From NCBI RefSeq assembly GCF_016820655.1, contig NZ_WSFT01000036.1, positions 124,001 to 188,000 of the forward strand: a DNA stretch of 64,000 bases, read 5' to 3'. Source of the DNA: Anaeromonas frigoriresistens. GTDB lineage: Bacteria > Bacillota > Clostridia > Tissierellales > SIT17. The notes under the pieces were generated by a model that was not told the origin of the DNA, did not search any database, and was given only the letters and a program-made list of their open reading frames with translations. Below are positions 37,127 through 55,394 of this stretch, in pieces (the first letter of the stretch is position 1; every line of letters starts with the position of its first letter). Made by a program: the position numbers and the translations under genes.

Positions 37127-37155
37127 TTGACACATATCTATATGTATATTATATT
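37127..37155 (+). promoter_or_regulatory. Arsenic operon promoter
   Basis: TTGACA, 17-base spacer, TATATT. Confidence 0.75.
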
Positions 37156-37159
37156 ATAT

Positions 37160-37175
37160 ATAGATGGATATCTAT
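37160..37175. promoter_or_regulatory. ArsR-type operator
   Basis: ATAGAT-GGAT-ATCTAT inverted repeat just downstream of the -10 box and upstream of the arsR start, placed as expected for ArsR autorepression. Related words (CATATCTATATG) lie within the promoter spacer. Confidence 0.55.
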
Positions 37176-37196: not shown

Positions 37197-37514
37197 ATGG
37201 AAGAAGAAATAAAAATTTTTAAAGCTTTATCAGATAAAAATAGATTGCTTATACTAGATATGTTATCCTGTGGTGAATTATGTGCTTGTGATATTATAGA
37301 GGGACTTAATTTAACTCAGCCTACTGTATCACATCACATGAAGATATTACAAGAATCTAATTTAGTTAATGGAGTTAAGCAAGGTAAGTGGACTATATAT
37401 TCTATAAATAAAGATAATGTAAAGAGATTAACTTCTTTTATAGATGAATTAACATCATACAAAGATAAATGTATATGTAATAGAGTAAAAAGCAGTTGTG
37501 ATATAGAAGACTAA
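37197..37514 (+). CDS. arsR: ArsR-family arsenite-responsive repressor
   Basis: 105 residues. Winged HTH: FKALSDKNRLLILDMLSCGELCACDIIEGLNLTQ, then PTVSHHMKILQESNLV. The As(III)-binding Cys pair is in ELCACDI (ELCVCDL in the prototype), and further Cys lie near the C-terminus (CICN, SCDIED). ATG 37197 follows GAAGGGG; the earlier in-frame ATG overlaps the operator. Arsenite binding is expected to release it from the operator upstream. Confidence 0.95.
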   Translation: MEEEIKIFKALSDKNRLLILDMLSCGELCACDIIEGLNLTQPTVSHHMKILQESNLVNGVKQGKWTIYSINKDNVKRLTSFIDELTSYKDKCICNRVKSSCDIED

Positions 37515-37531: not shown

Positions 37532-37825
37532 ATGAAGATTACTATAGAAAATGATGCATTAAAATTTATTAAAGACAAAGGTGGATTTGCCACTATAAGA
37601 CACAGTCAGAAAGGTTGATGTCATACTGGCTCAGTAGATGTACCCACTATACATTTAGGGGAGCCAAAGAGTAGTCTGGAAGACTATATAAAGAAGGAAG
37701 AAAAGGGAGTAATTATATACATTATTAAAAATATAAAATTATCTAATAATGAAATAAAGATAAGTCTATCTAAGCTTTTTAAATGGAAGAAACTTAGTAT
37801 AGAAGGGGCGTTAGTAAATAAATAA
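37532..37825 (+). CDS. Probable selenoprotein in arsenic operon (CC/Se-motif, HesB-like)
   Basis: ATG 37532 (GAAGGGG upstream) opens a frame with one internal TGA at 37616-37618, then reads on to TAA at 37823. The full product is 97 residues, MKITIENDALKFIKDKG at the N-terminus and HSQKG-U-CHTGSVDVP around the UGA, where U is selenocysteine 29, directly followed by Cys 30. Sec-Cys replacing Cys-Cys is the pattern of the small CC/Se-motif family, and the N-terminus recalls HesB/IscA-like proteins. Stem-loops lie just after the UGA. It sits between arsR and acr3 on the same strand with 17- and 14-base gaps. A thiol/selenol role with arsenic, selenite or cluster chemistry is inferred. Alternative: a nonsense mutation yielding a 28-residue fragment. 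Confidence 0.8.
37619..37665 (+). promoter_or_regulatory. Candidate bacterial SECIS element
   Basis: Two alternative hairpins follow the UGA. One has stem ACTG/CAGT with loop GCT, extended by CAT/ATG over a two-base bulge. The other is an eight-pair stem TAGATGTA/TACATTTA with loop CCCACTA. The first has a G at the start of its loop, as bacterial SECIS elements do, but lies closer to the UGA than typical. Neither has been tested by folding software. Confidence 0.4.
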
Positions 37826-38909: not shown

Positions 38910-39311
38910 ATGAAAAAGAAAGTAGCATTTGTATGTGTTCATAATTCCTGTAGATCACAAATGGCTGAAGGATGGGCAAAAAAAATAGGTAGTGATGTTA
39001 TAGAGGCTTATTCAGCAGGAACAGAAGAATATCCAGAAGTAAAACCTAAAGCTGTTGAGGTAATGGAAGAAGCAGGAGTAGATATGAGTAGCCATCATCC
39101 AAAGTTATTATCTGATATTCCTGAAGAAATTGATATTTTAATTACTATGGGATGTAATGTAGTTTGTCCTTATGTACCTAATAGTCATAGTGAAGATTGG
39201 GGATTAGAAGATCCTTCTGGGGGACCTATTGAAGGATTTAAAGAAACTAGGGATATAATCAAAGAGAAGGTAGAAGATTTAATTAAGAGAATAGAAAAAG
39301 AAGAATTATAA
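38910..39311 (+). CDS. arsC: Thioredoxin-coupled arsenate reductase ArsC
   Basis: 133 residues of the low-molecular-weight phosphatase fold. The P-loop VCVHNSCRSQMAEGW carries the catalytic Cys 10, and MGCNVVCPYVP carries the Cys pair that completes the disulfide relay in the Staphylococcus-type enzyme. It reduces arsenate to arsenite for export by ACR3. ATG 38910 follows TAGGAGG; the start at 38871 overlaps the acr3 end. Confidence 0.95.
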   Translation: MKKKVAFVCVHNSCRSQMAEGWAKKIGSDVIEAYSAGTEEYPEVKPKAVEVMEEAGVDMSSHHPKLLSDIPEEIDILITMGCNVVCPYVPNSHSEDWGLEDPSGGPIEGFKETRDIIKEKVEDLIKRIEKEEL

Positions 39312-39314
39312 TAT

Positions 39315-39338
39315 AAGAGCCTTCGGGCTCTTTTTTAT
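39315..39338 (+). terminator. Terminator of arsenic operon
   Basis: AAGAGCC-TTCG-GGCTCTT followed by TTTTATT. Confidence 0.92.
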
Positions 39339-39429
39339 TGTCTAGGAAGGTTAACTTAATAGAATCTCTAAACTATTGTTAATACTAAATTTTAATACTG
39401 AAGGAAATATTAGAAGATAATAAAAAAGA

Positions 39430-39850: not shown

Positions 39851-40579
39851 ATGTCAAACATGGCTATGTATTTAGCGGAATTTTTAGGCACATTGATTCT
39901 TGTTTTATTAGGTGATGGTGTAGTAGCAAACGTAGTTCTTAAAAGAAGTAAAGGTGAAAACAGCGGTTGGATAGTTATAGCTACAGGGTGGGGTTTAGCA
40001 GTAGCTATGGCTGTATATGTAACTGGTTGGGTAAGTGGAGCTCATATTAATCCAGCTGTTACATTAGGATTGGCTGCAATTGGAGATTTTTCATGGGATT
40101 TAGTACCAGGATTTATATTAGCACAAATAATAGGAGCATTCTGTGGTGCAATACTTGTTTATTTATCTTATAAGAGACATTTTGATGAGACAACAGATAA
40201 AGATGGTAAGCTTGGAGTATTCTGTACAGCACCTGGAATAAGAGATATAAAATGGAATGTTATAACTGAAATTATAGGTACAGCTATGTTATTAATAGGA
40301 GTATTAGGTATAGGCAATAGCAATAATAATGCAGGAGCAATAGGAGCATTATTAGTAGGTTTCCTTGTATGGTCTATAGGTTTAAGTTTAGGAGGTCCCA
40401 CTGGATATGCTATAAATCCAGCTAGAGACCTGGGTCCAAGAATTGCCCATGCATTATTACCAATAAGAGATAAAAGAGATTCTGACTGGGGATATGCTTG
40501 GGTACCTGTAATAGCACCTATAATTGGAGGAATATTAGGAGCATTTGTATATAAATTCTTTTTAAATATGTGGATATAA
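39851..40579 (+). CDS. glpF: Glycerol facilitator (aquaglyceroporin)
   Basis: 242 residues, six helices plus two half-helices. The two NPA boxes are SGAHINPAVTLG and GYAINPARDLGPR; the Asp after the second NPAR is the aquaglyceroporin mark. It admits glycerol by diffusion. AGGAGGGG precedes the ATG. First gene of the glpF-glpK operon behind a -24/-12 promoter. Confidence 0.96.
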   Translation: MSNMAMYLAEFLGTLILVLLGDGVVANVVLKRSKGENSGWIVIATGWGLAVAMAVYVTGWVSGAHINPAVTLGLAAIGDFSWDLVPGFILAQIIGAFCGAILVYLSYKRHFDETTDKDGKLGVFCTAPGIRDIKWNVITEIIGTAMLLIGVLGIGNSNNNAGAIGALLVGFLVWSIGLSLGGPTGYAINPARDLGPRIAHALLPIRDKRDSDWGYAWVPVIAPIIGGILGAFVYKFFLNMWI

Positions 40580-55349: not shown

Positions 55350-55394
55350 TAAGATATAAAATAATATGTATACAAATCAAAAAACGTTATATAA

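Follow-up and report, generated by a model that had tools for sequence, protein, structure and literature searches.

A CC/Se motif family selenoprotein gene between arsR and acr3 and its possible role as an arsenite carrier

In the stretch of DNA analysed here (64,000 nucleotides, hereafter the window), an arsenic resistance operon leaves an interval between its regulator and its exporter in which translation table 11 lists no open reading frame of at least 60 amino acids on either strand. Does this interval hold a gene, and if so, what might its product contribute to arsenic resistance? A preliminary description of the sequence had proposed a selenoprotein gene that standard callers would miss: a 97-residue frame, broken only by a UGA with Cys as the very next codon (U29-C30), which fills the operon gap behind a good ribosome site. 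Translation bears out this frame, which runs from an ATG at 37532 to a TAA at 37823−37825 with a single in-frame TGA, after which 68 residues follow without a stop, counting Cys30. Spacers of 17 nt and 14 nt separate the gene from the arsR stop (37514) and the acr3 start (37840), respectively, and a GAAGGGG run is located 5' of its ATG. The arsenic-operon setting is likewise upheld by the profile matches of arsR, acr3 and arsC around it. The features of this region are as follows.

37127..37155, + strand: promoter-like TTGACA-17-TATATT 5' of arsR (11/12 consensus; promoter-like sites in the region number 17, against 16.6 in shuffles)
37197..37514, + strand: arsR, ArsR/SmtB metalloregulator (NF033788, 93.8 bits, cut-off 55), with an alternative upstream in-frame ATG at 37164
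37532..37825, + strand: predicted CC/Se motif family selenoprotein gene, 97 aa, Sec29-Cys30 (NF041239, 77.1 bits, cut-off 40)
37616..37618, + strand: in-frame UGA, codon 29, predicted selenocysteine (site alignment, selection past the UGA)
37619..37621, + strand: Cys30 (TGT), direct neighbour of Sec29 (translation, motif count)
37627..37666, + strand: two-helix hairpin directly 3' of the UGA, a candidate SECIS without the expected early G in the apical loop
37840..38880, + strand: acr3, ACR3 family arsenite efflux transporter (TIGR00832, 392 bits, cut-off 282.8)
38910..39311, + strand: arsC, LMW-phosphatase-type arsenate reductase (PF01451, 81.6 bits, cut-off 23.2; three arsenate reductase models also match, all under their curated cut-offs)
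39315..39332, + strand: intrinsic-terminator-like hairpin 3' of arsC

Just past the operon, at 39422−39506 of the window, lies a Clostridiales-2 RNA (RF02937, 72 bits), followed at 39851−42121 by genes judged by eye to be aquaglyceroporin-like and glycerol-kinase-like, in an order that is identical at locus L072 of the same genus. A T-box leader (RF00230, 105.9 bits) was found further along the window, at 55392−55650.

Family membership and decoding of the UGA

The window protein matches the NCBIfam model NF041239 (Moor_selen_rel, "CC/Se motif family (seleno)protein") over model positions 1−91 of 91, and the Cys/Sec pair at the motif of this model is present as U29-C30. In Table 1 of a 2026 review (PMC13188914) the CC/Se family appears among the high-confidence selenoprotein predictions, and the model match together with this listing makes the window gene a member of a catalogued family. 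The representative given in the review has the motif CxxU, whereas in the window protein U and C stand directly side by side with His as the next residue, and the gene lies in an arsenic operon; the parts of the review consulted name neither a function nor an operon for the family. The family itself is therefore already known, and it is the arsenic link that is apparently new: among the open PMC literature matches listed (titles and abstract starts), there was no matching case for a link between a selenoprotein and an ars operon, for the CC/Se family or for adjacent or tandem Sec.

We examined 136 family members including the window, namely those in the fetched loci, which were chosen from the matches by score and by hand; a first, smaller member set held 117 aligned sequences. 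Tblastn with the window protein as sole query found no relatives on plasmids. Relatives of the close clade to which the window belongs (GUCHxG, see below) were not found in the viral contigs searched.

The preliminary description had staked its proposal on the genes for selenocysteine insertion and on the behaviour of homologues, and on both points it holds. SelA (639.9 bits), SelB (364.2 bits), SelD (400.7 bits) and tRNA-Sec (72.5 bits) are all in the genome over their cut-offs, with the best match to each on contig C52, and the SelD gene itself carries one in-frame TGA. Homologues that end at residue 28, which had been named as a ground for abandoning the proposal, are not what was found; homologues run on past the site, conservation beyond the UGA is strong, and the site holds UGA or Cys. 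Homologues in four further genomes match the window gene in the codon position of the UGA and in their location within the operon, so that all five close members (5/5, the window included) share both.

The same picture extends to the wider family, in which UGA and Cys interchange at one conserved site. UGA is present in 95 of the 136 members and absent from 41; of the 105 UGA codons read, positions being counted inside the matched domain only, just one, that of L068, lies beyond residue 50. In the 117 aligned members, UGA codons inside the matched domain are confined to the motif region, the exception again being L068, where the codon stands at the very end and is probably the real stop. A directly adjacent pair is formed as CC in 36 members, UC in 30, CU in 13 and UU in nine, and 48 members have no such pair.

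Selection on the frame was measured against L072, the nearest homologue, which comes from the same genus: dN is 0.11 and dS 0.92 past the UGA, as compared with 0.18 and 0.82 before it. Identity to the window protein past the UGA is 49/63 for L072, 34/63 for both L073 and L051, and 31/63 for L149. An open frame arising by chance is ruled out by these homologues and by the selection past the UGA.

For the SECIS element, we compared folding of the RNA just 3' of the UGA with shuffled sequences. Over the 95 UGA members this RNA has a mean z of −1.08 against mononucleotide shuffles, while three other positions in the same genes are less stable (z −0.17 to −0.30; p 9e-11), as is the motif position in 34 CC members (z −0.34; p 0.002). 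The published bSECIS model, as given in PMC13188914, is fitted by 71 of the 95 UGA members, where mononucleotide shuffles lead to an expectation of 30.5. The window hairpin has an energy of −15.7 kcal/mol and a dinucleotide z of −1.64, with 13 of 200 shuffles as stable, which is a weak signal because, of two stretches of this gene taken as controls, one reaches −1.11 (the other gives +1.01); the corresponding hairpin of L051 has a dinucleotide z of −4.50. The window hairpin agrees only in part with the published model: the early loop G is absent and nothing fits within 3 kcal/mol of the optimum. One of the five close members fits the model, and the window structure pairs in 80% of the cells of the clade alignment, with covariation over these five members no better than in shuffles. 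For the family as a whole the SECIS evidence is thus suggestive, and for the window gene it is weak.

These last two results, the misfit of the window to the bSECIS model and the covariation, speak for a reading in which translation really ends at the UGA and the downstream frame is either a decayed leftover or a unit of its own. The excess of dS over dN past the UGA, the position of the UGA at the motif and within the matched domain across relatives, and the presence of Sec genes in the genome argue against it so strongly that we consider it exceedingly improbable. From the frame, the selection, the UGA/Cys interchange and the Sec genes we infer that selenocysteine would be inserted at UGA29, and that the window gene is almost certainly a genuine selenoprotein gene of the CC/Se motif family.

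Arsenic genes around family members

Five members with the motif GUCHxG were found (the window, L072, L073, L051 and L149), and all five are accompanied by arsR, acr3 and arsC. The gene order is arsR-gene-acr3-arsC in the window and L072, arsR-gene-arsC-acr3 in L149, and arsR-gene-arsC-acr3-arsD-arsA-arsA in L073 and L051. When the clade alignment was used as the query, members scored at least 122 bits and the next matches at most 61, a gap which indicates that the GUCHxG clade is rare.

Across the family, genes for Acr3, ArsC, ArsD or ArsA were found within 4.5 kb of 19 of the 136 members including the window, always on the same strand, and 117 of the 136 have none of the searched arsenic genes within that distance. 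Acr3 is near 18 of the 19 arsenic-linked members, two of which share locus L162; four distant Acr3 matches score over the TIGR00832 cut-off. We also conducted a census at the level of the class, in which 391 genomes, sampled evenly out of a larger group, contributed 59 family rows at E ≤0.001, some of them under the curated cut-off, and 88 acr3 rows over cut-off. Eight of these 59 family rows have an acr3 gene over cut-off no more than 5 kb away, compared with 0.17 expected from genome sizes (Poisson 1.7e-11, kinship ignored); one further row, G223:C29, adjoins acr3 fragments under cut-off and was excluded from this count. The family is carried by 37 of the genomes, and 26 of these 37 have acr3 over cut-off.

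A directly adjacent Cys/Sec pair is present in 19/19 arsenic-linked members and in 69/117 of the others (Fisher 1.5e-4, a contrast that relatedness inflates), so that arsenic operons are not the only setting of the pair. On a quick tree (136 rows, 92 columns, many open forks), 17 of the 19 arsenic-linked members fall in one part of 31 rows (SH-aLRT 92, midpoint root), comprising 5/5 of the GUCHxG clade, 6/7 of a GUU clade, 4/4 of a Cys-Cys clade and two more. The arsenic label changes 8 times on this tree, against 18.1 in shuffles, and at least 3 of these changes are forced by the starred branches.

Six of the nine UU members, in which two UGA codons stand in tandem, are arsenic-linked. These UGA-UGA genes lie in Acr3 operons at L064:4989−5261, L067:4935−5216, L068:4980−5252, L069:4977−5255, L070:4977−5255 and L071:4935−5213, and five of the six are under the NF041239 cut-off. 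All six have Acr3, and no window-like ArsC was found within 4.5 kb in the DNA examined. A phosphoesterase-like ORF (named by eye) adjoins the UGA-UGA gene in L068−L071.

Other neighbourhoods were also observed. In L157 (4157−5267) a Cys-Cys member adjoins an arsenite methyltransferase gene that has an in-frame TGA (NF008823, 339.3 bits, cut-off 263). Two or three family genes are clustered per locus in L161 (4951−8684) and also in L126, L160, L186, L188 and L211. In L066, L074, L213 and L214 family members adjoin feoB-like ORFs, with feoA-like ones in some (by eye).

The gene is missing from two other species of the same genus. Genomes G002 and G003 have arsR, acr3 and arsC, and genome profile searches found no CC/Se family match in either. 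At their loci (L229 and L230) the arsR-acr3 interval is occupied by a permease and an MTH895/ArsE-family thioredoxin-like protein. The permease, scanned in L229, resembles the SO_0444 and SaoE exporters under both cut-offs, and the thioredoxin-like protein is over its cut-off (TIGR00412). This protein thus shares the arsR-acr3 position with the window protein but is a CxxC thioredoxin-like protein of a separate family.

Candidate roles of the Sec-Cys protein

To what kind of protein does the family belong? Alone, the window protein matches no IscA/HesB model at E ≤1 in Pfam and NCBIfam scans, and a search by sequence for a related solved structure returned two weak matches, with E values of 0.076 and 0.15. 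Family profiles reach further. We built an alignment of 74 members, hand-picked from 124 filtered sequences (the window and 123 others) with the arsenic-linked clades kept. Compared by hhalign with 10 HesB-like selenoproteins, it gave a probability of 95.55 and an E of 1.3e-8, and the first motif position was paired with the HesB-like Sec. Individually, 26 of the 74 members match PF01521 (Fe-S_biosyn) at E ≤0.1 (best 1.3e-5), three match NF038090 (IscA_HesB_Se), and the SufA and ErpA models are matched by one member each. An AlphaFold2 model predicted from two sequences (pLDDT 70.3, pTM 0.60) led in Foldseek to IscA/SufA in 6 of the top 9 rows, the best E being 3.6e-3 and none ≤0.001, and its structural match to IscA covers 76 aligned residues at Z 7.1 and rmsd 2.7. 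As a Z below 8 can reflect a mere common arrangement, the fold assignment rests on profile and model together; these point to a protein that probably has a remote IscA/HesB-like fold, with its Sec-Cys pair in the loop of the HesB-like Sec.

We propose that, by means of its selenol and thiol, the window protein carries or buffers As(III) for Acr3, a reading to which we give nearly an even chance. With UGA29 read as selenocysteine, the full 97-residue Sec-Cys protein would be made; As(III), arising as the product of ArsC or from uptake, would be bound by the adjacent selenolate and thiolate, and would then be buffered or handed to Acr3. In favour of this role are the arsenic genes beside all five GUCHxG members, the excess of family genes close to acr3 in the class census, and the adjacent pair retained by every arsenic-linked member. 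Arsenite is a likelier ligand than arsenate, since Acr3 is near 18 of the 19 arsenic-linked members and the arsenic-linked UU members have no window-like ArsC within 4.5 kb in the DNA examined.

Such an action would be ArsD-like without homology to ArsD. In ArsD, adjacent cysteines bind As(III). The window protein resembles it in its two directly adjacent chalcogens and in being encoded in an ars operon, and the ArsD proteins of L051 and L073 have a CC pair; it differs in that no ArsD model is among its NCBIfam matches at E ≤1, and in that both genes co-occur in two operons. This co-occurrence, in two of the five GUCHxG operons (L073 and L051), we count against a carrier role. Three further points weigh against it: 117 of the 136 members have none of the searched arsenic genes within 4.5 kb, adjacent pairs are also present in 69 of these 117, and two species of the genus lack the gene and carry in its place a permease and an ArsE-family protein, which could hint at redox.

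Extended to the family, the proposal would be that a branch of small IscA-like proteins took on the carriage of arsenite, using directly adjacent Sec-Cys, Cys-Cys and even UGA-UGA Sec-Sec pairs, giving selenoprotein metallochaperones that exploit the As-Se bond; this broader view is possible but somewhat more doubtful. A catalogued family to which our sources assign no function would thereby gain a concrete role in As(III) binding and delivery. If true, selenium would be tied to arsenic resistance and the IscA-like fold extended beyond Fe-S work, and the UGA-UGA members would offer a sharp test case for two consecutive Sec insertions.

The best-surviving alternative is that the protein is a redox partner, whose Sec-Cys selenol-thiol pair recycles ArsC or reduces arsenicals via a selenenylsulfide. 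Directly adjacent pairs are unusual in thiol-disulfide exchange, among the listed matches of the predicted fold the leading ones are IscA/SufA and not thioredoxin, and the six arsenic-linked UU members are without a window-like ArsC nearby. For this alternative, arsC accompanies all five close members, and most uncharacterised selenoproteins are likely to be redox proteins according to PMC13188914. The ArsE-family protein that, with a permease, fills the arsR-acr3 interval of two sister species also makes a redox role more open. On balance we regard it as rather unlikely.

A carrier of iron or Fe-S clusters related to IscA/HesB, guarding or repairing clusters under arsenic stress, would agree with the remote profile and fold matches to IscA, SufA and HesB. 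The cluster site of IscA is formed by three cysteines, with a C-terminal CGC motif. The window protein, with C30 as its sole Cys besides Sec29, has no such site, and it differs from the HesB-like selenoproteins (TIGR01911) and from PF01521 in lacking both the GUxGP motif and the C-terminal cysteines. The preliminary description had hinted at an Fe-S role like that of HesB/IscA: the kinship is in line with the profile and fold matches, and the Fe-S role, with one Cys besides Sec, is not favoured and seems improbable. Arsenic and selenium do interact chemically, and a protein that carries selenide or deals with selenite might share only its regulation with the arsenic genes, but 41 of the 136 members are without an in-frame UGA and the gene stands beside acr3 while the sel genes are elsewhere, on contig C52, which makes such a role very improbable.

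Elsewhere in the same genome, at C5:51893−52141 (L239:1501−1749), a HesB-like gene carries an in-frame TGA; it scores 52.8 bits, under the TIGR01911 cut-off of 66.35.
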